Position numbers and translations under genes: made by a program. Below are positions 34 through 50,510 of a DNA stretch of 64,000 nucleotides, in pieces. The notes below the pieces were generated by a model, which did no database searches, had not been told where the DNA came from, and saw nothing but the letters and a program-made list of their open reading frames with translations. Numbering within the stretch: position 1 is the first letter of the stretch; each line of letters starts with the position of its first letter. Source of the stretch: Williamsia sp. 1138 (lineage in GTDB: Bacteria > Actinomycetota > Actinomycetes > Mycobacteriales > Mycobacteriaceae); contig NZ_MJEJ02000054.1 in assembly GCF_002095435.2 (NCBI RefSeq), positions 372,001-436,000 of the forward strand, given 5' to 3'.

Positions 34-11732
<11,699 letters not shown>

Positions 11733-11736
<4 letters not shown>

Positions 11737-34186: not shown

Positions 34187-34193
34187 CGAGACG

Positions 34194-34667
34194 TCAGCGG
34201 TTGCGTCGCCAGATCTCCGCCGACAACGCCGTCGCGAACGCACACCATCCGGCATAGGGCGCCAGCGCCGCCGCGGCAGGCGGCGACGCCGGGGCCGCTC
34301 TACGGACCAGGTCCGCACCACTGACGGTGAGTGCGGCGGCGGTGATCGCGGCAGCTCCGGTGCGGTGCGCTCGAAAGAACACCCACGTCCATGCGCCGTT
34401 GAGAACGAGATTGACGGCGAGAGCGCGCTCGAATGCCGCTGCGTCGATGTGCCGCATCTCGTCGTTCAAGGTGTCGATCGTGACGGCCGAGCTGATCGCG
34501 ATGTCGGTGTAGAGCAACGTCCACACGATGGGGAACGCGACTGCGGGTGGCTGGAAAGGCGGTTTCGACAACCGCCGGTACCAGCGCGAGTCCGCATCCT
34601 GCGAGGCAAGAGCGCCGACAACCGCCGCGGTGGCCGTTCCAAGTCCGGTTTTGATGATCGACCGCAT
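34194..34667 (-). CDS. tspO: TspO/MBR family protein
   Basis: A 157-residue membrane protein with five helices. The family signature WYRRLSKPPFQPPAVAFPIVW lies near residue 28, followed by TLLY, and NLVLNGAWTWVFF marks helix III-IV. TspO proteins bind porphyrins and regulate tetrapyrrole or stress responses. It converges with the DUF6777 gene, the stops being seven bases apart. Confidence 0.9.
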   Translation of the reverse strand: MRSIIKTGLGTATAAVVGALASQDADSRWYRRLSKPPFQPPAVAFPIVWTLLYTDIAISSAVTIDTLNDEMRHIDAAAFERALAVNLVLNGAWTWVFFRAHRTGAAAITAAALTVSGADLVRRAAPASPPAAAALAPYAGWCAFATALSAEIWRRNR

Positions 34668-34838
34668 CGGGTCTCCTGTCGTCGAGTCGCGCGTCGAACC
34701 TCCCCTACGGCCTCAAACTACGCCGCCTGCCGTTCGCCTGACTGACATTCGTGGGTAGGACAGCGGGCCCTGTCGGTTAACGCGGGGAGTCGAGCTGCGA
34801 TAGGTAAGTACCGGTTCGTAGACATTCAGGAGATAGGA

Positions 34839-35345
34839 ATGCAGATGCGATTCCCACGACAGTTCAGCGCAGTTGCCGCGAGCCTCCTGGCGGCGTGCGC
34901 CTTCACCATGGCCGGCGCAGCCTCCGCGTCAGGCGCACCCGTCGGTCCGACCCTCACCGCGGCGCCGGTGTCGGTATTCCAGATACCCGCGATCGGCGTG
35001 AAAGTCAGCGGGCTGGTGATACCCGGCCCGCATCTGGCGTCGGTGAACGCCTCGTCCGCGGCGCCGGGCCGGACGACCTTCTCCGCGCCTGCCAGGCCCG
35101 AGACGTGCGCGACCACGGCCGGGGGTTCGCTGGTCCGGATCAATTACGTCAATGTTCGCACCGGCGACCGCGGCGTCAGCGTCGTGAAACCGTGCCCGTT
35201 CTTCCTCGATTCGGCACCGACACATCAGACCGTGCGAACCGGTTCCGGCCCTGTTGTGTTCACCGTGTCGATCACCGGTTCGTGGGCCTACCCGAATGCG
35301 GGTCAGCCGTCGCTCCCCGGTGGCGGCGGGTTCGTCGCACCCTGA
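34839..35345 (+). CDS. secreted protein of unknown function
   Basis: A 168-residue protein with a signal peptide (RFPRQFSAVAASLLAACAFT, cleavage probably after ASASGA). The mature part is rich in Val, Thr, Pro and Gly, looks beta-stranded, and has two cysteines (PETCATTAG, VVKPCPF) that could form a disulfide. The C-terminus is a Gly/Pro tail. An AGGAG site precedes the ATG. No family recognised. Confidence 0.75.
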   Translation: MQMRFPRQFSAVAASLLAACAFTMAGAASASGAPVGPTLTAAPVSVFQIPAIGVKVSGLVIPGPHLASVNASSAAPGRTTFSAPARPETCATTAGGSLVRINYVNVRTGDRGVSVVKPCPFFLDSAPTHQTVRTGSGPVVFTVSITGSWAYPNAGQPSLPGGGGFVAP

Positions 35346-35365
35346 CCCCACGCTGCGCAGCCTGT

Positions 35366-36007
35366 CTACTCGGCCGGCTGCCGCACCAGCGCGTTGAGAA
35401 CTGCGGTGATCACGGCGATGAGGTCGTCGATCGGCGGCCGCGGGTCGCTGCTGCTCCATGTGTGCACCAGTTCGGTGAGAGCGCCGAGGAAGGCAGCCGT
35501 GGCCAACGCGTATCCACCCGGCGGCGTGAAACCCCCGTCCGAGCGTTCGGCGATCGTCGCTGCGATGAACTCCGCCCACAACGCTCGGCGGTTGGCGCGG
35601 TGAGTCTCAACCCGGGAACTGACACCGATCATCTCGACGAAGACGATCCGGGCCCGGCGCGGATCATCACCCACCGAGCGGACCAGCGCTGCCATCGCGG
35701 CAGCGGTCAGCAGCGACTTCTCGGCGTCGGCGTCCTCCCGTTCGAGAGCTGTGACCACCGCCGCCTGTGAATCGTCTTGGATCACGTCGTAAAGACCGAG
35801 CAGGAGATCTTCCCGACTACGGAACTCCGCGTAGAACTGGCTGCGCGCCAGACCTGCCTCCGCGCAGATGTCGGCGACGGAACTGCCCGCGTAGCCCTTG
35901 CCACTGAAGACCGTCAGCCCCGCTTCGATGAACTTGGCCCGACGCTCTGCGCGTCGCACCGCCATCGACTGGCCGCCGTAGATGCGGGTGTCTGTGAACG
36001 TCCCCAT
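35366..36007 (-). CDS. TetR-family transcriptional regulator
   Basis: A 213-residue regulator. The N-terminal helix-turn-helix reads RRAKFIEAGLTVFSGKGYAG, SSVADICAEAGLARSQFYAEF, RSREDLLLGLYD. The C-terminal ligand domain is all-helical. The YGGQSMAVRRAERR extension is usual for a subgroup, so ATG 36007 was kept, although ATG 35965 is possible. The neighbours do not reveal its target; it converges with the secreted-protein gene. Confidence 0.9.
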   Translation of the reverse strand: MGTFTDTRIYGGQSMAVRRAERRAKFIEAGLTVFSGKGYAGSSVADICAEAGLARSQFYAEFRSREDLLLGLYDVIQDDSQAAVVTALEREDADAEKSLLTAAAMAALVRSVGDDPRRARIVFVEMIGVSSRVETHRANRRALWAEFIAATIAERSDGGFTPPGGYALATAAFLGALTELVHTWSSSDPRPPIDDLIAVITAVLNALVRQPAE

Positions 36008-36087
36008 AGGGCTCAGGATAAGTCAACCTATGCTGGCGCAGAGGCGAGATCACCGATCTGAGTCAACTGCCGAAATACGCGGTCGGC

Positions 36088-36321
36088 TCACCGTGTCGGG
36101 GAATTGCGCTCCAGCTCTCGCCGGCGACGCGGGCGGTCCGAGAACACAAAGATGGCGATCGTTCCGACCACCGTGACAATCGCGGTGAAACCGGCGGCCT
36201 GCGCGTCGTAGACGACGAGCATGACTGCGGACATGATCGCACCGACAGCAAATACGCTTCCCCAACTCCCATGCGTCATCCAGTACATGAATCCACCTTT
36301 CTCTTCGTTGTCGCTCGTCAC
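36088..36321 (-). CDS. small two-helix membrane protein, last gene of the lanthipeptide operon
   Basis: A 77-residue protein with two hydrophobic helices (SVFAVGAIMSAVMLVVYDA and FTAIVTVVGTIAIFVF) and an Arg-rich C-terminus. The ATG overlaps the stop of the LLM reductase gene (ATGA), so it should be co-translated with the lanthipeptide biosynthetic genes. Small membrane proteins at the end of lantibiotic operons often give producer immunity (LanI/LanH types). I see no sequence match to a known immunity family, so that role is a guess from position. Confidence 0.75.
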   Translation of the reverse strand: MTSDNEEKGGFMYWMTHGSWGSVFAVGAIMSAVMLVVYDAQAAGFTAIVTVVGTIAIFVFSDRPRRRRELERNSPTR

Positions 36322-37286
36322 TTCAGTACCCCACCCTCCAACAAGGCCACCGCGCGGTCAACGCTGCCCGTGCGACGGATGATGCCGAACGGATTGAGGA
36401 ACACCTCGTCTGCCCCTGCTGCTGCATAGGCAGCCACACCCTCCGCCAGGTCCCGGCCCGCGACCAAGACCAGGTTCGCCTCGACCAGACTCTCGCCGGT
36501 GCGGTGCGGTGAATCCGGGTCCCAGGTGATCCCGGATTCGACGAACATCTTTCGGTAGTGGTCGCGCGAGCCGTGCAGTGCGCACGCCTTGAATGCACCC
36601 GTCGCCCACTCCTTGGAATCAGCGATGATGGGGACGCACACCGCAGTTCGTGGCGCGGGACGGCCTGCGTCGTCCGCGGCGGCCGCAGCCTTGTCCACCA
36701 ACTGGGCGAGCCGATACGGCGGGGTCATCCACGGAATCAGCGCGTCTGCCGACGCCCCCGCCACGGTGGCCAGCTTCGGCGACAACGCCCCGAGTCCGAT
36801 CTCGACCGAATCCGTGGCGACGTCCGTCAAACGCACTACGGGATCGTGATAGTACTCCGGCCGCTCGAGCTGCTCACCGGGCTCGCGTCCCAGCACCGCC
36901 CGGACTGCACCGATGAATTCGGTGGCCGCGCGAGTCGGACTCGCGTACGGGTCTCCGTGTAGGGCGCCGACCATCAGCGGCTCCGAGACCCCCAATCCGT
37001 ATGTGATCCGCTGGTCGGTCATCCGAGCCAAAGTGCTTATGGCGAGGGCAGTTTCGAAAGGTGTCCGGACAGGTATCAGCCCGACGCCGAGACCGAACGG
37101 GATGTCGTAGCCGGCACCGAGCAACCAGTGCATCGCCGCGACCGGATCGACCATGAGCGATTGGCCGAACCACAGTCGATGAAAGGGACCGTGCCGAACC
37201 GCATCTGCCATCGACATCACAGAAGCCATGTTGTCGACCGACATCGGGTAGACCACCGACAGATCGGGTGTCATCTTCTCCTTCAT
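36318..37286 (-). CDS. LLM-class F420-dependent oxidoreductase, probable LanJ-C-type dehydroamino-acid reductase
   Basis: A 322-residue luciferase-like monooxygenase fold protein. Visible family segments are GPFHRLWFGQSLMVDPVAAM, LGVGLIPVRTPFETALAIST, and GLGVSEPLMVGALHG. F420 use is inferred from family resemblance. The ATG overlaps the stop of the lanM gene at 37286 (ATGA), so the enzyme is coupled to a lanthipeptide synthetase. In the class V lanthipeptide lexapeptide an F420H2-dependent LLM enzyme (LanJ-C) reduces dehydro residues to D-amino acids; the same job is the best inference here. An unrelated role in tailoring or in neighbouring metabolism is possible but less likely given the overlap. 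Confidence 0.85.
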   Translation of the reverse strand: MKEKMTPDLSVVYPMSVDNMASVMSMADAVRHGPFHRLWFGQSLMVDPVAAMHWLLGAGYDIPFGLGVGLIPVRTPFETALAISTLARMTDQRITYGLGVSEPLMVGALHGDPYASPTRAATEFIGAVRAVLGREPGEQLERPEYYHDPVVRLTDVATDSVEIGLGALSPKLATVAGASADALIPWMTPPYRLAQLVDKAAAAADDAGRPAPRTAVCVPIIADSKEWATGAFKACALHGSRDHYRKMFVESGITWDPDSPHRTGESLVEANLVLVAGRDLAEGVAAYAAAGADEVFLNPFGIIRRTGSVDRAVALLEGGVLK

Positions 37287-40090
37287 CAGCGAACTCCGTT
37301 CAGCGCCACAGGGATGAGTTGATCGTTGTCGCCCGCGGCCGCGCGGCCGAGCAGCACGTCGGTGTCGCCGATGCCTGCCCACCCGAGCATGTAGCCGAGC
37401 GTCGACGTCTTACCAGCTGTTCCGGTGGAGTAGCCGTGTGCGACAGCGTGGGAGTAGAGCCGGTCGCGGTAGTCGACAGCCCGAGCCAACAGCTCGTCCT
37501 CGAGCAGCCAGGGTTGCAGGGCAAGCAATGACTGAATGACTCCCGAACCACCATGACACACACTGAGATCTGCAGGATTCGTAGTCTTGATCGTCGTCAT
37601 GTGATCGAGCAGGCCTGACATGCGCCCCGTAGGGAGTGCATCGATCCGACCTGCGCGGGTCAACACCTCACCGGCTACGAGCGCAACCCCCGCCGACCCC
37701 GCGCACCAGGCTTTGCTGCCCTTGAATTCCCCACCCTCAGAGTGAGAGTCGGTGTCGAGCGCAGCAATGATCCAGTCCGCGACCTCGCCGAGCAATCGAT
37801 CGTCTCCGGTGGAGTCTGCCGCACGCGCCGCAGCCCAGGCGGTCCCGAGTCGGCCGTGGGCAAGATCGAACCACGCCCTGTCGGAATGTCCTTCTGCTGC
37901 CCACAGTCGACGCGGAGCCTCTGCAACCAGGTCCGCTGCCCGACCCCGCAGCACACGGCGGTCCGTGTGCTGTGCGGACAGCATCAGCAACACGCCGGCG
38001 ACTCCCCCTGCCACGTCAGTTTCTGCTGTCCCGGCCTCGAAGCGATCCCAGATGGTGGTGAGCAACTCATCGAACATGTTGTCCATCAGAGGAACCGCGC
38101 CGAACAGAGCTCCGGCCTCACCCGAGAACACCGATTCCGGACTGTCGCGAAGGACGTTTCGATACTCCTCGGCCAGTCTTTGATGACCCCGCGCCGCCGC
38201 TTCCGCAAACGACGATGCCGCGAGACCAGCACCTGCCGCCCGATCGAGGAACACCGGGATTCCACCGCCGTCGTGGAAGGCGACCAGGGTCCCAGGGGCC
38301 AGCGTCGGCGACGACGGTCCGCCACCGCCATACACCCAGCCCACCTGCGGCCCATCCGGATCCTCATGGCGATGCGCCAACTCCGAGACGATCTCGGCAA
38401 CAGCCTCCCCCGCCTGAGGCGTCGGACCCGCACGGAGCGTCGATGCGAAGACTCCGGACTTCCACAGAGGAGATGCCACACCCTCGCCGACCAGCTCGTT
38501 GAGACTCTCCTCGAGGACGAACTCGTGCACCAGCCCTGAGGTCTCACGCAATGCGGTGATCGAGTCGCGGGTGATGCTCCTCGGAGATCTGTCGAACACC
38601 TCCGGCCCGACCACCGACCGGGTTCCGAGACGTCGCGAACCGGCGTCGACACTGAAGTATGGGACATCCCTGTTGTGCATGTCCGCCGACTCTGTGGATG
38701 TTATGAACTCCTGCCCGGCGTCGTTGTACGACGACGGGGCCTTGAGGAGGCCCAGTAACCTGCCATACTCGTCCGGTGAACTCAGATAATCCGGATGCGT
38801 TGCAGCATCGATGAACTGAGCGTAGACGGTGGTCGCCCGGACCAGGTAGCGCACCGGTAGTTCGGGAAACAGATCGAAGACCCCGTCGATGTCGATGCGG
38901 CCGGACCGGATGGCCTCGAAGCAGGCGAGGTAGCCACTCCTGATGGTCTCGAAATGGTCCAGCGGATCCACGACCGCTGTACCGATCCGGACGAGGTTGT
39001 CGGAGTGGTTGTAGGTGAAGGTCTTACGAAACACTGAGACCGCGTCGGTGTCCCGGTCCGACATCTGGAACGACTTACGCTCCGACACCTGCTCGCGAGG
39101 TACCCCGATACCGGCGAGGATCACGTCGAACGGCCCGTTCGGGATCTGGATCGGCAGTAGCATCGTCGTGGTCGGTGCCTGCTTCATCCGGTTGACCAAC
39201 AGGTGCGCGAGACTGTCATCGAGCACCCCGTTGTCGGGCCGCAGCGCGGTCTCCACGTCGACAAAGCAGGGATACTCGCCGCACGCGACCACGTTCTCGT
39301 GATGCATGTCGCTGGTGCCGATGGCACCGAGCACCATTGTCGTCACACCGAAGCGGTAGAAGTAGCGCTCAGCCTCCTCCGTGGTCACCGAGCGATCCGC
39401 TTGGATGAACTCCTGCCAGCCGTGCTCACCTCGGTCGAGAACTCTGGGGACACATCGATCCAGCGATACGCCCACCACCTCGGATACCCGCTCGAACAAA
39501 GTCCGCACGAACCTGTCGATCGCGAGGGGGCGGGGTTTGTAGACGATCTTCACGCCCGATTCCTGTGTGACGATGAAGACTTGGCGTCCGCCGTTGTGCG
39601 AATCCGATCCGGTCGCGACGATGGTGCTGATCAGGTCATCACCGCGGATCCAGCCTTCATCTCGAAGGACCGCCAGGTCGGCTGCGTAGTGGTCGATCAG
39701 TTCTTCGACAGACCGGACGAAGTTGCGTTGCACCACCTCGAGGTTCTTGGCCAGCACCGGGTGCCGGGTCAAAATGTCGGCGCGAACAGATTCACTTGTC
39801 AACAGGGCGGAATACCGGTCCAGAGCGGTGGTCGATTCCGCATCAGATGGCAGGCCCCACCGCTGGCGATGCTCGTGGAAGTCACTGATGAGCACTCGGA
39901 AGCTCTCCATCTCGACCTTCCGGGCAAGTGCGGACTCAAGCTGTTCCCGTACTCCACCGCGCGAATCGTCGGCGATCACCGGCGATGCCGCCAAGGCGTT
40001 CAACGCGTCGGTGGCCGATTGCATCACAGGGCGATAGAAGGGTGAAAAAAGTTGGTTTGCAAACGGATTGGCTGACACTGTTGCAGTCAT
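37286..40090 (-). CDS. lanM: class II lanthipeptide synthetase LanM (second copy)
   Basis: A 934-residue bifunctional enzyme that dehydrates Ser/Thr and cyclises Cys onto them. The N-terminal DUF4135 dehydratase has GSDSHNGGRQVFIV, GVKIVYKPRPL and the catalytic stretch GTSDMHHENVVACG with FVDVETAL. The C-terminal LanC-like cyclase keeps all zinc ligands: WCAGSAG near residue 822 and SVCHGGSG near 867, plus AHGRLG. Both halves therefore look active. It lies 69 nt after lanT and is coupled to the LLM reductase downstream. Overall it is clearly different from the other LanM, so the two may serve different precursors, as in two-component lantibiotics. Confidence 0.96.
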   Translation of the reverse strand: MTATVSANPFANQLFSPFYRPVMQSATDALNALAASPVIADDSRGGVREQLESALARKVEMESFRVLISDFHEHRQRWGLPSDAESTTALDRYSALLTSESVRADILTRHPVLAKNLEVVQRNFVRSVEELIDHYAADLAVLRDEGWIRGDDLISTIVATGSDSHNGGRQVFIVTQESGVKIVYKPRPLAIDRFVRTLFERVSEVVGVSLDRCVPRVLDRGEHGWQEFIQADRSVTTEEAERYFYRFGVTTMVLGAIGTSDMHHENVVACGEYPCFVDVETALRPDNGVLDDSLAHLLVNRMKQAPTTTMLLPIQIPNGPFDVILAGIGVPREQVSERKSFQMSDRDTDAVSVFRKTFTYNHSDNLVRIGTAVVDPLDHFETIRSGYLACFEAIRSGRIDIDGVFDLFPELPVRYLVRATTVYAQFIDAATHPDYLSSPDEYGRLLGLLKAPSSYNDAGQEFITSTESADMHNRDVPYFSVDAGSRRLGTRSVVGPEVFDRSPRSITRDSITALRETSGLVHEFVLEESLNELVGEGVASPLWKSGVFASTLRAGPTPQAGEAVAEIVSELAHRHEDPDGPQVGWVYGGGGPSSPTLAPGTLVAFHDGGGIPVFLDRAAGAGLAASSFAEAAARGHQRLAEEYRNVLRDSPESVFSGEAGALFGAVPLMDNMFDELLTTIWDRFEAGTAETDVAGGVAGVLLMLSAQHTDRRVLRGRAADLVAEAPRRLWAAEGHSDRAWFDLAHGRLGTAWAAARAADSTGDDRLLGEVADWIIAALDTDSHSEGGEFKGSKAWCAGSAGVALVAGEVLTRAGRIDALPTGRMSGLLDHMTTIKTTNPADLSVCHGGSGVIQSLLALQPWLLEDELLARAVDYRDRLYSHAVAHGYSTGTAGKTSTLGYMLGWAGIGDTDVLLGRAAAGDNDQLIPVALNGVR

Positions 40091-40159
40091 GATGTCCTCT
40101 CAAAAAGTACCGGACAGGTTGATCAGGCGAACGTAAAGCCTGTTTCGAGCAGACAGCCG

Positions 40160-42346
40160 TCAGGCAGTCACGGGTTCGAGCCGGCCATAGAGCTCGCTGT
40201 AATGCCCCCCACTGCCGATGAGTTCGTCGTGGTCGCCACACTCGACCACTCGGCCGCCGTCGAGCACGTAGATGACATCGGAAGTCCGCACGGTCGAGAG
40301 ACGGTGGGCGATGATGATCTGGGTGCAGCCCAGATTCTCCAGGATCTCGGTCACGCGCCGCTCGTTCAATGAATCCAACGCTGCCGTGGCCTCGTCCAGG
40401 ACCAAGATCGCCGGCCGCTTCAGAAGCGTGCGGGCGAGCGCCAGCCGCTGTCGTTGACCGCCGGAGAAGTTGGCACCCATCTCCGAGATCACTGTGTTGT
40501 ACCCCATCGGGAGTGCATCGACGAAGTCGATGATGCCGAGGCTCCTGGCGAATGCGATGACCTCGTCGTCGTCCATCGTCGCTCCTGCTTTGAGGTTGTC
40601 CACCACGGTGCGGTTGTGCAGGTGCACTTCTTGGGAGACGTATCCGATCTCGCTGCGGAGTGCGTCGGTTGCGTAGTCCCGACTGTCCCGCCCCCCGAAT
40701 CGGATTGTGCCGCCGGTGGGTTGGTAGAGACCGCAGATGATTCGCCCCAGGGTGCTCTTGCCCGAACCAGACGCCCCAACCAGCGAGACCTTGGCTCCGG
40801 CTGGGATGTCGAGATCCACGCCGTCCAGCACGTTCGCGGAATGCTTGTCGAAGCGGAACTGGACGGAGTCGACATGAACGGACGCCGCGGCGAGTGAGTC
40901 GAGATCACCGCCTGCGGACTCGGGCTCAGCGGAGGTGATGTCGTGGATGCGCGACATGTACCGCGATGCCTCGACGAACTCGTTGTACGCGGCGAAGATC
41001 GAGCTGGCGACGGCGAACAGCATTCCCGACACCGCCTGGATGGCCACCGCCGCACCGAGCGAGATCGTGCCGGTGGACACCATGTGCAGACCGATCAGCA
41101 GCATGGCAAGCGGGCCTGCCAGCTGAATGGTCGAGACCAGACCCGAGATCCACCCCTGCTGCAAGCGCATGCGCCGCTTCATCGCGGTCAGCGACCGGGC
41201 GTACTCGTCGTTCCAGCGATTCAGGAACTGCGCGCTGTAGCCGCCCATCTTGATGGTCTCGATGGTCACCGTCGCATCGAGCTGGATTGCCTGGCTCTTG
41301 CTCATCTGACTGATCTCGGAATCGAGCGCTTCATTCACCTGCCTGCGCGTGGCCATGAGCACGACAATGGTCAGGCTGTAGATACCCAAGGCGACGAGAC
41401 CGATCTCCCACGAGACCCAGAACATGTAGCCGAGTACGCAGAGCGCAGTTCCGATGTCCAGTGCGCCCTGGACGAACCGGGCCGAGAGCAGGTCGCGTAT
41501 CGAGTTGACGCTGTTGAGACGAAAGAGCAGTTCACCGGGCGATCGCGTGGAGAAGTACTTGTACGGCAAACTCAGCAGCCGGCTGAAGGTGCCGAACATG
41601 AGGTGACTGCCGATGAGTGTCACAGCATGTGCCAGCACATGAGTACGAATCACCTGCAGCGCATAGAATCCGACGGCCGCTGCGGCAACCAGGGCCAACA
41701 GTGTCGACAGCCGCGAAGAATCCGGAGAGCTCGTAAAGCTGTTCACCGCCCACTGCGTGATGAACGGAAGACCAAGTGTGGCTGCGTAACCGCAGATGGC
41801 CAGGATGGCGGTGAATCCGAGCTGGCGCGCAGCAGCGCGCGTCAGCAACGGGATGTTGCGCCATTCGTGCAGCACAGGCATCCGTTTACGTTCGAAGTCC
41901 GCTCCCGGCGTGGCGTCGATGGCGACACCGCTGAACGATTTCTCGAGTTCGTCGAGCGTCACCTTGCGACGCCCGGCCGCTGGATCCACGATGACCGCGT
42001 GACGTTTGCCGACCGATTCGAGCACCACGAAGTGGTAGTTCTCCCAGTAGAGGATGACCGGGTTGAGAAACGCCTTCAGGCCTCTGGCTGCGCGTACCCG
42101 GTAGATGGCGACATCCATGTTGCGGGATCGGAGCAGATCTCCGATCCGTTTCGCGCTGAGACCATCTCGTCCCGCCTCGAACTCCTTGCGTAGTTCTGCC
42201 AATTCTTCGTCGCGGCCGTAATAGGACAGGAGTGCAATGGAACTGGCGAGTCCGCATTCGGTCTGGGACAGCTGCATGACCGTCGGTACCCGACGGAGCG
42301 CAGGCTCATGGTGCGCTCGGGGCCGCCGTGTGATGCCGATGTTCAT
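40160..42346 (-). CDS. lanT: LanT: peptidase-containing ABC transporter for lanthipeptides
   Basis: A 728-residue AMS-type exporter. The N-terminal C39 peptidase has the catalytic Cys31 in SQTECGLAS, His105 in ENYHFVV and Asp121 in VDPAAGRR. Six membrane helices follow (about 165-440), then an ATPase with Walker A GASGSGKST, signature FSGGQRQRLALART and Walker B LVLDEATAAL, all intact. It should cut leaders after a double-Gly-type site (GG, GA, AG) and export the cores. The ATG overlaps the stop of the upstream lanM (ATGA). It is the only transporter in the cluster, so it probably processes all four precursors. Confidence 0.96.
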   Translation of the reverse strand: MNIGITRRPRAHHEPALRRVPTVMQLSQTECGLASSIALLSYYGRDEELAELRKEFEAGRDGLSAKRIGDLLRSRNMDVAIYRVRAARGLKAFLNPVILYWENYHFVVLESVGKRHAVIVDPAAGRRKVTLDELEKSFSGVAIDATPGADFERKRMPVLHEWRNIPLLTRAAARQLGFTAILAICGYAATLGLPFITQWAVNSFTSSPDSSRLSTLLALVAAAAVGFYALQVIRTHVLAHAVTLIGSHLMFGTFSRLLSLPYKYFSTRSPGELLFRLNSVNSIRDLLSARFVQGALDIGTALCVLGYMFWVSWEIGLVALGIYSLTIVVLMATRRQVNEALDSEISQMSKSQAIQLDATVTIETIKMGGYSAQFLNRWNDEYARSLTAMKRRMRLQQGWISGLVSTIQLAGPLAMLLIGLHMVSTGTISLGAAVAIQAVSGMLFAVASSIFAAYNEFVEASRYMSRIHDITSAEPESAGGDLDSLAAASVHVDSVQFRFDKHSANVLDGVDLDIPAGAKVSLVGASGSGKSTLGRIICGLYQPTGGTIRFGGRDSRDYATDALRSEIGYVSQEVHLHNRTVVDNLKAGATMDDDEVIAFARSLGIIDFVDALPMGYNTVISEMGANFSGGQRQRLALARTLLKRPAILVLDEATAALDSLNERRVTEILENLGCTQIIIAHRLSTVRTSDVIYVLDGGRVVECGDHDELIGSGGHYSELYGRLEPVTA

Positions 42347-45324
42347 GCTGCACCACCGATCTTCAGAGTGAGTGGCGAATAGGGCAGATCGGGTTCGAGC
42401 CTTCTGGCCAGGTGATAGGCCACGCCCGCGGTGCCGACCATCAGGCTCGCCGTGTTCGCGTGTCGACTGTGCCGGTCGTGGGACTTTGCCCCGACGACCT
42501 GCGCAGTGAGCAGTTCCGCAACCTCGCGCGTTTGGGCTTCCGAACCCACCCGCTGCACGACTTCCCAGTTACCCAGATCGCCGTGACAGAGAGTCAGATT
42601 GCGCGAGAATCCGTGCTGTTGCAGGGTATCGATGGCGCGAGCGGTGAACTCGGTCGCCCGGTTGCCGACCGCAGCCTCCGAGGCGGCGAACTCGTTGAGC
42701 GCGAGCGCCATACCCGACACTCCGTGGCACCAACCGGTGGAGTGGTGCGGTTCATCGAAGCTGGTGCGCCAGTTGCCCTGCTCCGGCGAGAAGAATTGCG
42801 GGAGCTCATCGAACAGGTCCCGCGCGAGAGGTTGCGCATCGCCGCCGCCGAATCCGTCGGACGCGAGAGCAGTGAGGTGAAACACCAGACCCGCGATGCC
42901 ATGGGCGAAGCCGGACTGGCGCAGGACCTGATCGCGCTCGTCGCGCGGAACCTGCATCGCCACCCGGATCTCGTCGACCGCGTCGCGGGCCACGCCGTCC
43001 ACCATCGCGAACGATTGGCGGTGGTCGCCCGCGACTGCACGCAGCGCCGACGCAATCCCGATGCGTCCTCTGATCACGTCGATGGCGCCGAGCGAGGCGC
43101 CGGCTGAAGCCCTGGCGACCACCTCCGGTATCGACGCCCTGGCGGCGGTGATCCAATCCGCCCGGCCTGCCACCTCACCTGCTGCGGCAAGCGCAAACAG
43201 GCATCCCGACAGTCCTGTGTACGCGCCCGCCCCGATGGCCGAGAGCGACCGGTCTTCGTAGCTCTGATCGGTGAGGATCCCGGCCATGGGATCGAATACC
43301 CTTGCCGCGGCGGTATGAAAGCGTTTCTGGTCGAGCACTGTCCCGAGGGTGGCCAGCGCCAGCGCAGGACCCATCCGACCGCTGTAGAGGTCGTATCCGA
43401 GGACACCCGGTGGCCAGGCACGCCGGGTTTGCATCGACGCCAGCGGGCTGAGCCAGGTCGTCGGCAGATGCCCGAACAGGTCAGAGAGCATGGACTCGGT
43501 GAACTGATCGCCGAGGCGCCGGGCCAAATCTGGCAGACCCTCGTCGCGTCGCAGGGTGGGCACCGAAGCGGGCGAGTCTGCTTCCAGGTGGTTGTCCGGA
43601 AAGCGGGCCGTGAAGGCCGCGTAGATGAGGTCGATCTGTTGCGCGAGGTCCGAGTCACCGAGACCGCGGATCTTGTCGACAACCGTCCCGAGTGGCGACG
43701 CTGGAACGGTCGCCCCTGCTGGATTGCCCTCAGCGTCCCGCACCTCGGTACCGGTCGCGTCGACCAGCAGGTACGGTACGTCCCGACTGACCATCTGCGT
43801 GACCTCGGTGGCTGTCAGCTCCGGAGCGCAGTACCGGTTGGCGATCACCAGACGCTTGAGCAACAGCGCAGACAGCTCGGGCGACGCGAGAGCCTCCGGC
43901 GACGTTGTCGTCCGAAGCAATTGGGCGTAGGTCGCGGTGGGATTGTGAACGTACCGGACCTTGGCACGATTGAATGTCCGGATGACGACGGCTTCGAACT
44001 CGGCCGCCTCAGCCGAAATCGCCTCGTAGGCACGTCTGAAGCCGGCAGCCATCGCGTCGGCGAGTTGCAGCACATCGGCGCGGCTGTGGCCACGTACGGT
44101 ACTCGCACGCAGCCCCTCCTTGTCAGGACGGGAAAGGACGACAGCCATGTCGTCACGGAAAGGGTTTGTGAAGGTCAGCGCTGAAAAGGGCGAGCGCCCT
44201 TCTTCGTCGGCGCCGAGAAATCCCAGGTCGATCTGGTCGTAAACGCCCGATGCATCTTCCCGAACGAGGACCAGCGGCAGCAGACCTACACCGTAGATAG
44301 AGGTCCTGAGGATCTCGTGGGCGTTTCGCGGGACCTCGGGGATGCCGCCGCTCCGGTTACGGGGAGGATGCATCAGCGTCTCGAGGTCCACCGGAACCGG
44401 TCCACGATGATCGGCGATCACGTTCTCGTGGTGCATGTCCCGGGCGTTGAGGAGGTAGAGCACACAGGCCAGTTGGCCTGAGGCGTCCAGGAAGGCGTTC
44501 CGGTCGCTGTCGTGGACATCGACGGCGGTGATGAACTCGACGAATCCGTAGCCGTCGCAGCGGACGACCTCGGCAGCAGGCAGGACGATGCCACGCTCGG
44601 CGCACCAGTCGACCAGTTCGGCATAGCCGGCCTCACAGTCGACCGGGCGCGGCTTGTACACCACTTTCATCCCGCCGTCGAAAGTGATGACCGCGACGCT
44701 TCGGCCCCCGGCATGGGTGTCACCGCGACCGAGGTCGACCGCGGTGATCTCGGCATCGGCAGGTATCGACAGCCGGCCCTCGAGGTCAGCCCTGTGGCGG
44801 TGCACGCGGTTCAGCATCTCGACCAAGGCACGGCGTCGGGTGGTCACATGGCTTCGGTGAATACGTTCGAGCATCGGATGGTCTCGATGGAGCTCCTCGA
44901 GCACGGAGTTGCCGAAGTCGCTGACGTACGACTGGTACCGCTCTTCTGGCGTCTCGCCGTTGAGACCGTTCGCCGCCGAGACCGTCGACAGGTGACGGAC
45001 GAGCACCCGCACGTACACCTCATATAGCGCGGCCTCGAGCGACGAAGCCCATTCTTCGATGAGCTGTTGGCGAGGGCTGTGACCGTGGGCGGCCAGTGCC
45101 TCTTCTGTCTCCGCGCGTTCGGGCTCGACCAACACACGGACGATGGATTGAAATGGACGCGATTCGTGCTGGGGGGCAGGCGAACCCAGCACCGGCGGGA
45201 AGGAATGGAATGTGTCGTGCGATAGCGCCGCGTCCAGTCGGTCGTCGAATTGCGCGAGCGGCTCCAGCAGTTCTCGGGTCTCTTCGGCGGTGAGTTCGGG
45301 ATACACCTGCAGATCCGCGGTCAT
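42343..45324 (-). CDS. lanM: class II lanthipeptide synthetase LanM (first copy)
   Basis: A 993-residue LanM. The dehydratase half shows GRGDTHAGGRSVAVI, MKVVYKPRPVD and the catalytic NARDMHHENVIADH with VDLETLMHP. The cyclase half keeps WCHGVSGMAL and LTLCHGDLG as zinc-binding segments near residues 880 and 930. ATG 45324 was chosen for the GAAGGAG seven bases upstream. It directly follows the four precursor genes and overlaps lanT by 4 nt. Which of the four peptides it modifies cannot be read from sequence. Confidence 0.96.
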   Translation of the reverse strand: MTADLQVYPELTAEETRELLEPLAQFDDRLDAALSHDTFHSFPPVLGSPAPQHESRPFQSIVRVLVEPERAETEEALAAHGHSPRQQLIEEWASSLEAALYEVYVRVLVRHLSTVSAANGLNGETPEERYQSYVSDFGNSVLEELHRDHPMLERIHRSHVTTRRRALVEMLNRVHRHRADLEGRLSIPADAEITAVDLGRGDTHAGGRSVAVITFDGGMKVVYKPRPVDCEAGYAELVDWCAERGIVLPAAEVVRCDGYGFVEFITAVDVHDSDRNAFLDASGQLACVLYLLNARDMHHENVIADHRGPVPVDLETLMHPPRNRSGGIPEVPRNAHEILRTSIYGVGLLPLVLVREDASGVYDQIDLGFLGADEEGRSPFSALTFTNPFRDDMAVVLSRPDKEGLRASTVRGHSRADVLQLADAMAAGFRRAYEAISAEAAEFEAVVIRTFNRAKVRYVHNPTATYAQLLRTTTSPEALASPELSALLLKRLVIANRYCAPELTATEVTQMVSRDVPYLLVDATGTEVRDAEGNPAGATVPASPLGTVVDKIRGLGDSDLAQQIDLIYAAFTARFPDNHLEADSPASVPTLRRDEGLPDLARRLGDQFTESMLSDLFGHLPTTWLSPLASMQTRRAWPPGVLGYDLYSGRMGPALALATLGTVLDQKRFHTAAARVFDPMAGILTDQSYEDRSLSAIGAGAYTGLSGCLFALAAAGEVAGRADWITAARASIPEVVARASAGASLGAIDVIRGRIGIASALRAVAGDHRQSFAMVDGVARDAVDEIRVAMQVPRDERDQVLRQSGFAHGIAGLVFHLTALASDGFGGGDAQPLARDLFDELPQFFSPEQGNWRTSFDEPHHSTGWCHGVSGMALALNEFAASEAAVGNRATEFTARAIDTLQQHGFSRNLTLCHGDLGNWEVVQRVGSEAQTREVAELLTAQVVGAKSHDRHSRHANTASLMVGTAGVAYHLARRLEPDLPYSPLTLKIGGAA

Positions 45325-45418
45325 GGGTGACTCCTTCGTGGACGGGATTCGAGTGGTGAGGCGCGGGCCGGAGCCAGATGACACGTCGGGCACCGGCCCG
45401 CGCCGACGCAACCGAGGG

Positions 45419-45571
45419 TCAGGCCTTGGTCACGATGATCGAGACGGGAATGATGGTTGTTCCCGGCAGGCTGGTGACGGTGAGAGTTCCACCGTAGGTA
45501 TCGGAATCCCGGTCGTCGGCCAGGGCGATCAGTTCTGCTTCGTCTACTCTTTCGATATTGCTGTAGGGCAT
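45419..45571 (-). CDS. lanA: lanthipeptide-type precursor 4, cysteine-free core (50 aa)
   Basis: A 50-residue peptide with AAGGAG before the ATG. The leader (YSNIERVDEAELIALADD) closely follows those of precursors 2 and 3 and ends in GG, a site for the C39 peptidase of LanT. The predicted core is 22 residues, starts TLTVTSLPGTTII and ends SIIVTKA. It has eight Ser/Thr but no Cys, so no (methyl)lanthionine can form within it. Dehydration by LanM followed by reduction by the LLM enzyme would give a linear peptide with D-Ala/D-Abu residues (inference). Confidence 0.82.
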   Translation of the reverse strand: MPYSNIERVDEAELIALADDRDSDTYGGTLTVTSLPGTTIIPVSIIVTKA

Positions 45572-45605
45572 TATCGAGCTCCTTACTGGTGATTGACTCT
45601 TGTCG

Positions 45606-45749
45606 TCAGGCCGCGGTGACGATCGATATCAAGATGGTCTCGACCAAACTGGTCATGCTGATCGTGCCGGCATGGGCGTCGGACTCCTGCTCATCCGCCA
45701 GAGCGATGAGATCGGCTTCCTGCGCTTTCTCGATGTTGTTGCGAATCAT
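45606..45749 (-). CDS. lanA: lanthipeptide-type precursor 3, cysteine-free core (47 aa)
   Basis: A 47-residue peptide with AAGGAGA before the ATG. The leader NNIEKAQEADLIALADEQ is a clear relative of that of precursor 4 and ends DAHAG, a possible LanT cleavage site. The core of about 19 residues begins TISMTSLVETI and ends SIVTAA; it has seven Ser/Thr and no Cys. It resembles the hydrophobic N-terminal half of a beta-type lantibiotic without the ring-bearing C-terminus. Confidence 0.8.
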   Translation of the reverse strand: MIRNNIEKAQEADLIALADEQESDAHAGTISMTSLVETILISIVTAA

Positions 45750-45764
45750 GTTCTTCTCCTTGTG

Positions 45765-45932
45765 CTAGCCGCAGCCACCGTCGACGCCGGTGCACTTGAA
45801 CGTGGGGCACAGCGCGACGGACAGTGCAGATGCGAGGCTGATGGTCGTCGGATGAGTGCCACCCGCCGCTTCGGTCTCGTTCAGTGCGATCAATTCGGAC
45901 TCGTCGTACCGCCCGGCCTTGTCTACTGCCAT
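45765..45932 (-). CDS. lanA: two-component lantibiotic beta-peptide precursor (precursor 2, 55 aa)
   Basis: A 55-residue peptide with GGAGAGG before the ATG. The leader contains DESELIALNETEAAGG and ends in a double glycine. The 30-residue core begins THPTTISLASAL and contains SVALCPTFKCTGV, nearly matching the CPTTKCT segment of haloduracin beta and lacticin 3147 A2. It ends GGCG, giving three Cys in the core. This pattern identifies a beta component, which normally acts together with an alpha peptide to form pores. Confidence 0.9.
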   Translation of the reverse strand: MAVDKAGRYDESELIALNETEAAGGTHPTTISLASALSVALCPTFKCTGVDGGCG

Positions 45933-45965
45933 GTTTCACACCTCTCCGTGATGTTCGAACGCCAC

Positions 45966-46130
45966 TTACTGGCAGTTGTTCTGGGATTCTTTGGTCAACG
46001 TGCACCAACCACCGTCGTTTCCGAGGAAGTCGGACAGGGTGAATGTGTTCGTGGTGCACGCGCCGTAAGCGACGCCATCGAAATGTTGCTCATCGATTTC
46101 TTCGGCGAGCGAGATGCTCTTGTCGATCAT
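45966..46130 (-). CDS. lanA: two-component lantibiotic alpha-peptide precursor, lacticin 3147 A1-like (precursor 1, 54 aa)
   Basis: A 54-residue peptide with GAAGGGAAA before the ATG. A 24-residue acidic leader ends VAYGA, a Gly-Ala LanT site. The 30-residue core starts CTTNTFTLSDFLGN and continues GGWCTLTKES, ending NNCQ. It aligns without gaps to mature lacticin 3147 A1 (CSTNTFSLSDYWGN, AWCTLTHEC), also 30 residues. The lipid-II-binding motif CTLTxEC has Ser (codon TCC) in place of its second Cys, so the core has three Cys rather than four. It is the first gene of the operon. Confidence 0.93.
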   Translation of the reverse strand: MIDKSISLAEEIDEQHFDGVAYGACTTNTFTLSDFLGNDGGWCTLTKESQNNCQ

Positions 46131-46215
46131 TCGATTTCCCTTCATTTCTATCGGTACCGGCACCGAGGCATTCGGCCACCGGGTGCTACGCCGCTGTGTC
46201 CGGGACCAGACTGTT

Positions 46216-46267
46216 CGCCGGTCGGGTGGACCACATGGACGCAGATCAATTTGATCGCCGACCGGCG
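46216..46267. promoter_or_regulatory. nested inverted repeats in the divergent lanA / nSTAND-WD40 promoter region
   Basis: Perfect 10-base arms CGCCGGTCGG and CCGACCGGCG are 32 bases apart. Between them, at 46244-46256, lies a second perfect palindrome GATCAA-T-TTGATC. The region is the only non-coding space (271 nt) between the first precursor gene and the divergent gene, so it should hold both promoters and an operator. The binding factor is unknown. Confidence 0.6.
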
Positions 46268-46401
46268 ACAGCCACAGCGGAGGACGGGGGAAAGTGCAGT
46301 TCAGCGGCAACTTCTGATGTTTCCGCTTTGGACGCCTCCGGTTAGGTTCCGGATGATCGCAATAGTCCGGTAGCTTGTGAACCGGGGTAACGAACTGGTT
46401 G

Positions 46402-49400
46402 ATGAGTCGGTTGGGGGACCGTTTGCGAGCACGTCGCGAAGTCATCAATACGTGGTTGGTCGAGCTGTTCGCTGCCGCCGGGGATCCGATCCTGGTAGCC
46501 GTCGCGAGGCGCGCCAGGTCGTACGGGGCCCGCGGCGGAACGCAACGTCTGAGCGATTGGCGGCGTGGCGTGTCTTCGCCCCGGCAATTCGACGACCTCC
46601 GGCCATATCTGCTGGCCCTCTTCGACATCGCCGATAAACGCGGGGCAGATCCGGAGTCCTATCGCCGCCAGCTCGACGACTGGGAAATGCTGTGGACCTC
46701 ACATTCCATAGCCGCACCGGAGTCGGATTCTCAGGAATGCCCTTACCGGGGTTTGCTTCCCTTCAGGGCCGAGGATGCCGACGTGTTCTTCGGCCGGGAG
46801 GAATTGACCAAACGTCTCTATCGGCAGATCACGCCCGGGGCCGGGATCACGATGGTGCTCGGTGCCGCGGGCGTCGGGAAGACCTCCCTGCTGAACGCTG
46901 GGATCGGCCCTCTCGCCACCGGAGCAGGTCTGTACCTGCGCAGGCGAAAAGTGTCCTGCACGATGACCTCGATGCGGCCGGGCTCCGACCCGGTCGGGGA
47001 GTTGCTGACCGGCCTCGGAGTGGCAGATGAGATCGGGCCCGATGGCGCGTCGGCGACGGAGATCATTGCCGCGCTCGAGCAACGCGAGAGCCCAGTCGTC
47101 CTCATCGTCGTCGACCAATGCGAAGACCTGTACACCGAGGTGAACCCGCAGGATCGCGCTGAGTACCTGTCGATCCTCCACAGCTTGGGAAGCTGGTCAG
47201 GGGCGGCCGTTGTCACTGTCCTGCGCGCCGACTTCTATGGGCGGGCGCTCGGGGATCAACCCTTCGCCGAAGCGCTCGAGCATCGATCGATCGTGGTGAA
47301 GCCGGTCGCGCCCGAGGGCTTCCCTCAGATCATCGAGAAGCCGGCGAAGGTACGGGGCGTGGCGGTCGCCACGGGCCTCTCGGATCTGATCATCAAAGAT
47401 CTCACCGCCGAGACCGGGAACGTCGCGCCACTGGCCATGCTGCAGCTGCTGATGCGCGAGACCTGGGAAGCGCGGGAGTCCTCATCGCTGACGATCGCCG
47501 CCTACCAGCGCACGGGCGGGATCGCGGGCATCGTCTCCACCGTTGCCGAAGGGGCATTTGTGAGGCTGACTCCCGACGAGCAGGAAGTCGCCCGGCATGT
47601 GTTCTTGCAACTGGTGCACCTCACTCCGGACGGGTCGGTCGTGGCGATTCGGACGCCCGTCGAATCGCTCGAGACCTTCGACCGCCATGACGTCCGCGCC
47701 ACCGACGTCGCCGATCACTTCCTCGATCAGCGACTACTCGTCCTGTCCAACGATCAGATCGAGTTGTCGCACCGCTCACTCCTCGATTCGTGGCCACGGC
47801 TCCGTGATTGGGTCTGCGCCGAGCGCGAGTGGGCTCCCATCCGCCGGTACGTCGAAGTCGACGCCGAGCAGTGGGAGGCGAGTGGGCGGGACCCCCGCTT
47901 GCTCTACCGTGACGCACAGCTCGATTCGACGAAGCAGTGGCTCGATCACCAGGGCACCCCGGGACCCGGCATCAATGAGTTTCTCGAGACGTCGCGCCGT
48001 CGCGCGAAGCGGAGTCACCGCCGACGCCGCATCGCCCAGGTCTCGGTCACCCTGCTCGCGACCATCGCCCTGGTCGCCGGCTTGCTGGCGACGATGAAGA
48101 GCAACGATGCTGCGCGGGCGCTGGACCTTGCCAATCGCGACGCAACCCTGGCCGAGATCGATCGCTCCGCCATGACCGACCCGACGGCCTCCGCACGTCT
48201 CGCCTCGGAGGCACTGTCCAAGTATCCGTTTGATCAGTCGATCGTCGCGCGGGTGCTGGCGACCCAGGCCGATGGCCTCTACCAACGTTTCCCGGATCCG
48301 GCAGGGGCTGCCTGGAGCGTAGCCGGCAACGGTGACGTACTTGCCTTCGCCGGAGCCGACGGCTCGATCGAGCTGTGGCGCAACACCTCCCCGCCGACCC
48401 AGCTCGCAGTGGTTCCCGACGCACATGCGGGTTACACCACGACGACAGCATTCGATCCGCGGGGAAGGGGTATGGCCAGCACCGGGGCCGATGGCTCGGT
48501 CCGATTGTGGCGATTCGACGATCAGGGCGGGATCGAAGGCTCCGCCACAGTGGAGACGCGGAGATCGCAGGCCACCTTCACCGTCGCTTATTCGCCCACG
48601 CAACCGTTGCTGGCAACGACAGACGGGGCGGGCATGATGACCTTGTGGGATGTTGCTGACGACACTGCGCCGCTGGAACTGTCGTTGTCGCCCACCGGGG
48701 GATCGCCCGCACGCACGATTGCCTGGCATCCCACTCGTCCCCTGATCCTGACCGGAAATGACGACCACACGATGACCTTGTGGGATGTCACCGACCCCCG
48801 AAGACCGCGAGCGCAGCAGACAATCGCCGACACCTCCGGCGTCCACTCCGTCGCATTCGCTCCCGACGGAACTCTCGCAACGTCGGCCGATGATTCCGGA
48901 GAGACCCAACTCTGGTCGATCGATGGCGCATCGTTGACACCCATCGGCACTCCACTGAAAGGGCCAACTGCGGCCGTCTGGTCCACCGCATTCAATTCGA
49001 ATGGTTCCGAGCTCGCCGTGTCCAGCCTCGACGGCAGCATTCACGTCTGGAACGTCTCCCGTCCGGAAAACCCGCTGTTGACGGGAGTGCCGCTGCGGGC
49101 GCAGGGAACGCCGATCTACGCCTCCCGGTTCCTCGATGACAACAGCCTCGTGAGTGCCACCGACAGCGGACCGCTCCGATGGCAATTACCCGACGGGCTG
49201 GTGCCGGGCGCGGCCGGCCAGGGTCAGCAGCCCAGCTGCGCAGTCGAGATCAGTCTCTGCGTCGCGACGTTCGACGACGGCGTGACGGTTCTTGCCGATA
49301 CATTCGACCCCCGACGCCCCATGGTCACGACACTGCTACCCGAGCAGCGCTTCTCGTCGACCGCACTCAGCGGTGACGGTCGACTGATCGCCACGATCGC

Positions 49401-50121
49401 GGGGCGCTCACTCGCTCTATGGGATCTCACCGATCGACAATCGCCTCGACAGATCGGGCCAACCCGCCTCTTGGACAACCGCTTTCGGAACCATCTTGCC
49501 TTCAATCCGTCAGGAACGCTGCTGGCCACCACCACCACGGACAACGCGATCGGGACGTGGGCGGTCACCGACCAAGGACTGGTGGCACGGTCAGACGCTG
49601 CGTTGGCCGGGCATTGGATCAACGCGCTGGCGTTCGATCCGACCGGCGACACCATCGCGATCGGCGGGGTCGACGGCGCCATCGCGCAGTGGCACGTATC
49701 CGCAGATGGCCGCCTCACCCGCACTGCTGAACAGGTAGGTGACGGGGACGTGTCTGCTCTGACTTATTCAGCGGACGGAACGGCACTCGTGGTCGGTCAT
49801 TCGGATGGGAGCCTGCGCTGGTGGAGGGACGGGGATCCGACTCCTGGAGATCCGGCCGAGTCAGGTGTCGGACCAGTTCTGTCGATCGCTCGGGTTGGCG
49901 GATCAGTGGCCATCAGCGGCGGCAGTGGTGTCATCCAGCTCATCGAGACCGAAGGCGATCTCGCGGTCACCGACGCGGTGATAGGACCCAGCCAGCGGGG
50001 TCGGACCCGTCTTGTGGCGATCGACGACCGCAATCTGTTCGTGGTCGGCGGTTCCGGTTACGCACAGGTGGTCACAACCGATCCAGGAATCGTCACCAAC
50101 CGGATCAGATCACTGACGTGA
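46402..50121 (+). CDS. membrane-anchored nSTAND NTPase with WD40 repeats
   Basis: About 1239 residues. An N-terminal helical, HTH-like region (about 1-100, with RLSDWRRGVSSPRQFDDLRP) leads to an nSTAND1-type NTPase: YRGLLPFRAEDADVFFGREE, Walker A GAAGVGKTS near residue 154, Walker B VVLIVVDQCEDL near 233. One membrane helix follows (VSVTLLATIALVAGLLATMK, about 546), then WD40-like repeats to the end (WDVADDTAPL, LWDVTDPRRP, HVWNVSRPEN). Such proteins are signal-transducing switches. It is divergent from the lanthipeptide operon and shares its promoter region, so it may sense or regulate the lantibiotic; this is inference. TTG 46399 immediately before the ATG could also start it. Confidence 0.9.
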   Translation: MSRLGDRLRARREVINTWLVELFAAAGDPILVAVARRARSYGARGGTQRLSDWRRGVSSPRQFDDLRPYLLALFDIADKRGADPESYRRQLDDWEMLWTSHSIAAPESDSQECPYRGLLPFRAEDADVFFGREELTKRLYRQITPGAGITMVLGAAGVGKTSLLNAGIGPLATGAGLYLRRRKVSCTMTSMRPGSDPVGELLTGLGVADEIGPDGASATEIIAALEQRESPVVLIVVDQCEDLYTEVNPQDRAEYLSILHSLGSWSGAAVVTVLRADFYGRALGDQPFAEALEHRSIVVKPVAPEGFPQIIEKPAKVRGVAVATGLSDLIIKDLTAETGNVAPLAMLQLLMRETWEARESSSLTIAAYQRTGGIAGIVSTVAEGAFVRLTPDEQEVARHVFLQLVHLTPDGSVVAIRTPVESLETFDRHDVRATDVADHFLDQRLLVLSNDQIELSHRSLLDSWPRLRDWVCAEREWAPIRRYVEVDAEQWEASGRDPRLLYRDAQLDSTKQWLDHQGTPGPGINEFLETSRRRAKRSHRRRRIAQVSVTLLATIALVAGLLATMKSNDAARALDLANRDATLAEIDRSAMTDPTASARLASEALSKYPFDQSIVARVLATQADGLYQRFPDPAGAAWSVAGNGDVLAFAGADGSIELWRNTSPPTQLAVVPDAHAGYTTTTAFDPRGRGMASTGADGSVRLWRFDDQGGIEGSATVETRRSQATFTVAYSPTQPLLATTDGAGMMTLWDVADDTAPLELSLSPTGGSPARTIAWHPTRPLILTGNDDHTMTLWDVTDPRRPRAQQTIADTSGVHSVAFAPDGTLATSADDSGETQLWSIDGASLTPIGTPLKGPTAAVWSTAFNSNGSELAVSSLDGSIHVWNVSRPENPLLTGVPLRAQGTPIYASRFLDDNSLVSATDSGPLRWQLPDGLVPGAAGQGQQPSCAVEISLCVATFDDGVTVLADTFDPRRPMVTTLLPEQRFSSTALSGDGRLIATIAGRSLALWDLTDRQSPRQIGPTRLLDNRFRNHLAFNPSGTLLATTTTDNAIGTWAVTDQGLVARSDAALAGHWINALAFDPTGDTIAIGGVDGAIAQWHVSADGRLTRTAEQVGDGDVSALTYSADGTALVVGHSDGSLRWWRDGDPTPGDPAESGVGPVLSIARVGGSVAISGGSGVIQLIETEGDLAVTDAVIGPSQRGRTRLVAIDDRNLFVVGGSGYAQVVTTDPGIVTNRIRSLT

Positions 50122-50143
50122 CCCGGCGCGCCGGCTCGAGCAT

Positions 50144-50413
50144 TCAGCGCTGAGTTCCTTCGGAAGGAACGGCTTGGGCGGAACCGGCCACGGGAACGCC
50201 GATCGCCTGACCTGAGACCGCCATCGCTGCCGTGTGGACCTCGATGGTCCCGTCGGCGCGCTGGCAGATCGTGGTCACGGATCCATCAGGATTGACCAGT
50301 TCGATGAACTTGTCGTTGCTGATGGGACGGTTGTTCGGAACCCGCACGTGCACCTGATTGTCGGCGGCACACTGCCGCATGTTGCCCTGTGACGCCTTCA
50401 CGCTGGTAGCCAT
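50144..50413 (-). CDS. small protein of unknown function (89 aa)
   Basis: ATG 50413 follows a purine-rich GGAGAAGGGG stretch, though the frame is open to 50467. The product has two cysteines (MRQCAAD, TTICQRA), a beta-rich centre (HVRVPNNRP, IELVNPDGSV, GTIEVHT) and an Ala/Gly/Val tail. No signal peptide. It converges on the nSTAND/WD40 gene (stops 23 nt apart) and shows no family I know. Confidence 0.5.
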   Translation of the reverse strand: MATSVKASQGNMRQCAADNQVHVRVPNNRPISNDKFIELVNPDGSVTTICQRADGTIEVHTAAMAVSGQAIGVPVAGSAQAVPSEGTQR

Positions 50414-50510
50414 CCTCGCCGCCCCTTCTCCGGTTGCATCTGACTGGAGTTCGTCGCAGAACGCCATCCGGATGGGACCAGTTGCGTGCCGAGGTACGCG
50501 GGCCGTGCCC

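Follow-up and report, generated by a model that had tools for sequence, protein, structure and literature searches.

Birimositide (brt) of Streptomyces rimosus is described as combining an alpha peptide like that of lacticin 3147, a beta peptide, and a luciferase-like LanJC; its masses fit the conversion of one Ser to D-Ala per peptide, and a luciferase-like gene lies in the cluster (PMC7268733). Lacticin 3147 and rodencin have alpha and beta peptides with D-Ala, rodencin beta also carrying D-Abu (PMC11519912), and bicereucin of Bacillus cereus is a two-component lantibiotic whose D-amino acids are set by a LanJ (PMC11519912, PMC10373908). Cys-free precursors have been described as well. A cluster of Nostoc punctiforme encodes a Cys-free, Ser/Thr-rich prepeptide, a dehydratase, and the dehydroalanine reductase NpnJA, and linear D-amino-acid peptides have been proposed as its products (PMC5808125). 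Cys is absent from some cyanotins and, in LanM/LanKC clusters, from the LanM precursors (PMC7268733); prochlorosins without Cys, and class II/III clusters with an additional peptide that has none, are on record (PMC11251773). Here we analyze an operon of Williamsia sp. 1138 in which two Cys-free peptides, X and Y, stand beside an alpha and a beta precursor.

The operon and its cassette

In the window (the whole stretch of DNA analyzed, 64,000 nucleotides), a compact operon on the minus strand has the gene order alpha, beta, X, Y, lanM1, lanT, lanM2, and a luciferase-like LanJC candidate. The alpha precursor LanA1 (45966..46130, with an alternative in-frame start at 46145; core CTTNTFTLSDFLGNDGGWCTLTKESQNNCQ) matches NF000539 with 39.6 bits (cutoff, 29) and PF14867 with 27.2 bits (cutoff, 27), and the beta precursor LanA2 (45765..45932; core THPTTISLASALSVALCPTFKCTGVDGGCG) matches NF038161 (LchA2/BrtA2) with 49.6 bits (cutoff, 26). 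Two class II lanthipeptide synthetases follow, LanM1 (42343..45324; TIGR03897, 514.8 bits; cutoff, 304), which starts at an ATG with an AAGGAG site, and LanM2 (37286..40090; TIGR03897, 365.8 bits, same cutoff), which retains WCAG and CHG motifs that we take to be zinc ligands. Between them lies LanT (40160..42346), an ABC exporter with a C39 leader peptidase (PF03412, PF00664, PF00005). With alpha and beta above their family cutoffs, two LanM proteins, and a C39-LanT, the operon is by homology that of a birimositide-type class II two-component lantibiotic.

The LanJC candidate (36318..37286) is a luciferase-like (F420-type) oxidoreductase that matches PF00296 with 86.3 bits; every match of F420-family profiles to it fell under the profile's own cutoff, and a PDB sequence search gave no match at an E value of 1e-5. 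Two proteins of F420 biosynthesis, CofD and CofG, are encoded in the genome with scores above their cutoffs; for CofH, the top match scored 296 bits against a cutoff of 374 and lacks CxxxCxxC, so that an F420 cofactor is likely, not proven. The operon ends with a small hydrophobic open reading frame (ORF) of 77 amino acids (36088..36321, minus strand), 98.7% identical in Williamsia limnetica and without a Pfam match at an E value of 0.01; it could, as a guess, encode an immunity protein. Far from the operon, positions 34-16541 hold, by eye, a very large NRPS-like ORF (3,900 amino acids) followed by two ABC-exporter-like ORFs and a lysine/ornithine monooxygenase look-alike, perhaps a siderophore cluster.

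The operon belongs to a cassette of 14,163 bp (36057..50219), which also contains a divergent gene for an nSTAND1 NTPase with WD40 repeats (46399..50121, plus strand; PF20703, 303 bits; PF00400, 117.3 bits). The cassette is missing from G005 and G007, where positions 36056 and 50220 lie side by side with ~105 bp between them; these are the genus members most like the source genome at a nearby gene (94 and 95% identity, respectively), at which W. limnetica (G002) has 86% identity. Within the genus, 2 of 9 genomes carry the cassette, one of them the source. W. limnetica shares 97.5% identity with the window over 34188-50487 and 80 to 88% beyond, indicating that the cassette was probably exchanged recently.

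Precursor genes X and Y

The two frames reported for 45419-45749 in the preliminary description are present on the minus strand with exact coordinates. Peptide X (45749-45606; 47 amino acids) has the core TISMTSLVETILISIVTAA after the AG/GG cleavage site, with 7 Ser/Thr and 0 Cys; peptide Y (45571-45419; 50 amino acids) has the core TLTVTSLPGTTIIPVSIIVTKA, with 8 Ser/Thr and 0 Cys. The counts of seven and eight given earlier are correct, the GG/AG sites and the LanA-like character are borne out by the sequences, and the statement that no lanthionine can form agrees with the absence from both cores of the Cys needed for (methyl)lanthionine. The leader features said to be shared with beta are close, not identical: EA[DE]LIALAD is common to X and Y, but beta reads ESELIALNE, leaving E-[AS]-[DE]-L-I-A-L as the plan common to all three.

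An AAGGAG site lies just 5' of the ATG in both genes. X and Y share ~50% identity, and their copies in W. limnetica match the opposite peptide of the window with 49% identity over 43 amino acids (tblastn E values, 5e-12 and 9e-12). Against the beta family NF038161, Y scores 24.1 bits (E = 3.5e-5), just below the 26-bit cutoff, and X scores 14.6 bits (E = 0.034), also below it. Chance ORFs are ruled out by the homology and the ribosome sites, and X and Y are, judging from their sequences, paralogues of beta.

Comparison of X with Y gives a pS of 0.665 against a pN of 0.266, and a dN of 0.33 against a dS of 1.63 (dN/dS, ~0.20); the Fisher test, on rounded counts, yields a P value of 6e-5 for the whole peptides and 0.038 for the cores. 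Between the window and W. limnetica, X and Y together differ by 5 substitutions, 4 synonymous and 1 nonsynonymous, with a binomial chance of 0.016 for so few replacements; the sole replacement gives W. limnetica X its single Cys, in the leader and outside the core. Since the carriers are two genomes with ~98% identity over the operon, the case for conservation comes mainly from X against Y, and since dS approaches saturation and few differences could be counted, we regard the evidence for selection as good, not overwhelming. It is hardly credible that these frames go untranslated, given their homology, ribosome sites, and codon-level constraint. Overall, X and Y are very probably real, selected precursor genes.

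Six of the 7 core Ser/Thr of X stand opposite Ser/Thr of Y (hypergeometric P = 0.0017, a value flattered by the pairwise alignment). One alternative is that X and Y leave through LanT unmodified or barely modified, as signal peptides or plain hydrophobic parts of a bacteriocin, with LanM inactive on them. GG/AG sites and a C39 exporter would suffice for such export, and the hydrophobicity of both cores is very high (GRAVY, 1.62 and 1.21); the beta-type leaders and the retention of Ser/Thr positions, needless in an unmodified peptide, make this alternative unlikely.

Relatives and the loss of cysteine

Profile NF038161 matched at least 13 of 394 genomes of the class at E values of ≤0.01 (source included; 6 over the cutoff) and at least 13 of 392 genomes in the genus to which G546 belongs (G546 included; all over the cutoff), with the best 16 candidates scored per genome in both searches. 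A search of the order with an X/Y/beta alignment matched at least 1 of 397 genomes, the source genome itself, among the best 17 candidates scored per genome, so that absence there is soft. The operon comparison covered 18 loci in 17 genomes: W. limnetica, where the operon recurs, G546, G478, G702, G716 (two loci), and 12 genomes from the genus of G546. Eight class matches lay outside this comparison, 7 of them below the NF038161 cutoff and 1, in G743, in a frame with a stop.

Among the 16 non-Williamsia genomes, alpha-beta-lanM1-lanT-lanM2 and the luciferase-like (LLM) gene form one row in 7, and 4 have a split order with the LLM gene still 3' of lanM2; the LLM gene thus follows lanM2 in 11 of 16. 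The other 5 are more distant, with an LLM match elsewhere in 2 and none within the fetched stretch in 3. The gap between beta and lanM1 measures ~90 to 210 bp in the 7 syntenic relatives against 440 bp in Williamsia, where it is filled by X and Y; by eye, no precursor-like frame (among short frames of at least ~20 amino acids) was seen in this gap in those relatives. Beta is doubled with its Cys kept in 2 of the 7 (L057 and L112), and in these loci the second, Cys-containing beta occupies the slot between beta and lanM1 that holds X and Y here.

A profile scan of 54 loci produced 24 matches at E values of ≤1e-4, of which 6 belong to W. limnetica and 18 to other genomes. The W. limnetica matches are beta, Y, and X, each found twice in two overlapping stretches of the same genome, and because beta, X, and Y went into the profile along with relatives, these match by construction. 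Seventeen of the 18 others are beta-type peptides with 3 to 4 Cys in their last 30 residues, and the remaining one (L071) is a different lantibiotic-like peptide with 6 Cys; the Cys-containing beta of G716 was missed because frames over 250 amino acids had been dropped. X and Y were the only Cys-free matches.

Some other matches are recorded as leads. A crude scan for Cys-free frames near LanM genes (42 loci) was unreliable, yielding spurious frames, and missed Y in both W. limnetica stretches, where the LanM1 frame overlaps its place. Near a LanM match in another actinobacterium (L095), long-leader precursor-like frames at 122-448, 527-823, and 14782-15090, without a Pfam match, include two whose tails are rich in Ser/Thr and free of Cys and a third with two Cys; they may form a further mixed set. 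In L090 (3284-3886), two short hydrophobic peptides with AG-type leaders and 0 and 1 Cys adjoin a LanM match, by eye. A plasmid search had no match for the beta protein or Y. One Streptomyces record showed an alpha-like DNA match, and a viral-contig match to the alignment, located in L141 and by eye in the final part of a phage-type protein, was taken as chance.

Since the nearest homologues of X and Y in the scan, the beta-type peptides, all have Cys, Cys was probably lost, and by parsimony its loss would predate the split of X and Y. In a multiple alignment, the last ten residues of Y, IPVSIIVTKA, stand gap-free opposite CPTTKCTNDC of L057 beta: Pro is retained, a Thr has become Ser, and the three Cys have become Ile, Ile, and Ala. 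X is three residues shorter than Y at this tail. When Y is aligned pairwise with the beta of the window, which has a longer end, its tail falls off the Cys positions, and for this reason a residue-by-residue replacement of Cys is suggestive only. Descent of Y by frameshift from a peptide with a Cys-bearing tail was rejected: by eye, the shifted frame beyond the stop has CPTC at a distance from GG far greater than in beta.

The preliminary description had stated that homologues elsewhere with Cys lost here by mutation would refute its reading of X and Y. All beta homologues found in the scan do have Cys, which goes against that reading in part; the X-Y pair subsequently evolved under purifying selection. 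X and Y could also be decaying copies of beta that no longer have a function, as might be suggested by the tandem beta copies elsewhere and by the Cys present in all 17 beta-type peptides that the scan found in other genomes. Their frames, however, are intact in two species and preceded by strong ribosome sites, and the dN/dS of ~0.20 between X and Y points to purifying selection, which makes decay quite unlikely.

The two other precursors are changed as well. TxTxEC has been described as a lipid II motif (PMC7268733, PMC9431498), and the Williamsia alpha reads TLTKES, with Ser replacing its Cys. A Cys follows the Glu (TxTxEC or TxSxEC) in 17 of 17 aligned alpha relatives, which are tblastn matches from 16 other genomes (those of L115-L118 being nearly identical to one another). 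Two further frames, one in L060 and one in L061/L081, have leaders resembling that of alpha and different ends that still contain Cys; they stand outside this count. The alpha gene is identical in W. limnetica, making a sequencing slip unlikely; the peptide retains three Cys and is probably one ring short. The beta has an odd end, CPTFKCTGVDGGCG, instead of CPTTKCTxxC, with CTGVDGGC in place of CTxxC. The label of a canonical pair, given to these two precursors earlier, does not hold, because the lipid II motif of alpha is missing its Cys.

Possible products and comparison with known systems

We consider it about 60% probable that X and Y are precursors born of beta duplication that would be dehydrated by LanM2, partly reduced, and exported as linear beta-like partners of alpha. 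On this account, the beta gene was duplicated to give X and Y, Cys disappeared before the two diverged, and the copies were kept. LanM2 would recognize the beta-type leader (EA[DE]LIALAD) and dehydrate core Ser and Thr to Dha and Dhb; as the cores have no thiol, no ring is possible. The LanJC candidate may then convert Dha, perhaps also Dhb, to D-Ala (D-Abu), and the C39 domain of LanT would cleave after GG or AG and export X and Y. The N-terminal Thr might be converted through Dhb to 2-oxobutyryl, as drawn for birimositide. The predicted products are linear hydrophobic peptides of 19 and 22 residues, serving as extra beta-like membrane partners of alpha. The calculated neutral monoisotopic masses of the cores, 1962.10 (X) and 2224.33 (Y), would drop to 1836.02 and 2080.25 with 7 and 8 dehydrations, and each reduced Dha would add 2.016, giving 1842.07 and 2084.28 with every Ser reduced. 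Modification of X and Y by a LanM is fairly probable, whereas it is a tentative suggestion, with the odds somewhat against it, that they act with alpha in place of beta. D-amino acids had been proposed for such peptides before, and the putative LanJ-type enzyme (PF00296, LanJC type) would make this idea concrete.

X and Y might instead work inside the producer, binding alpha, LanM, or the target as decoys or for immunity, rather than as secreted weapons. Beta-like peptides could compete with beta, and no known lantibiotic immunity gene was recognized among nine scanned proteins; a C39-type cleavage site is nevertheless retained, as is a core rich in Ser/Thr, and we find this role very improbable. 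To return to secreted, beta-like partners of alpha, it is conceivable, although somewhat unlikely, that the operon encodes a four-peptide system leaving lanthionine chemistry, in which two ring-free, Dhb/D-Ala-rich betas join an alpha no longer able to form the ring that docks to lipid II. Such a set would not depend on classical lipid II binding when attacking membranes or some other target. By combining a ringed beta with two ring-free betas and a changed alpha, the operon offers a natural experiment on whether two-component lantibiotics need their rings, and the pair of LanM2 and the LanJC candidate could serve for making linear D-amino-acid peptides.

The kind of peptide is already known, as Cys-free LanM or dehydratase substrates have been published for Nostoc, cyanotins, prochlorosins, and LanM/LanKC clusters. 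The earlier claim of novelty was therefore too strong (PMC5808125, PMC7268733, PMC11251773). Surveys that demand Cys in the core pass over genes like X and Y: one required at least one Cys (PMC11251773), and another put Cys-free LanM precursors aside (PMC7268733). What appears new is the presence of Cys-free beta paralogues inside a two-component operon, beside an alpha from whose lipid II motif the Cys is missing; no such case was seen among the titles and abstracts listed in literature searches, which does not prove its absence from print.

Cyanotins, prochlorosins, and LanM/LanKC precursors resemble X and Y in being LanM associated and Cys free, but the excerpts cited do not present them as paralogues of the beta peptide in a two-component lantibiotic. 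X and Y share with the Nostoc peptide a Cys-free, Ser/Thr-rich core encoded beside a dehydratase and, by homology, a LanJ candidate; the Nostoc cluster, however, has NpnJA, and its excerpt mentions no Cys-containing pair, whereas here two Cys-free peptides accompany alpha, beta, and a LanJC candidate. Lacticin 3147 and rodencin differ in having LanJA, with no Cys-free paralogue mentioned in their excerpt. Bicereucin reportedly has lanthionine in only one of its peptides. The bicereucin system, as excerpted, differs from that of Williamsia in its LanJB, its single LanM, and its Bacillus host. The Williamsia operon is like the excerpted birimositide cluster in its alpha, beta, and luciferase-like LanJC candidate, and unlike it in adding two Cys-free beta paralogues, an alpha without the TxTxEC Cys, and a beta ending in CPTFKCTGVDGGCG.
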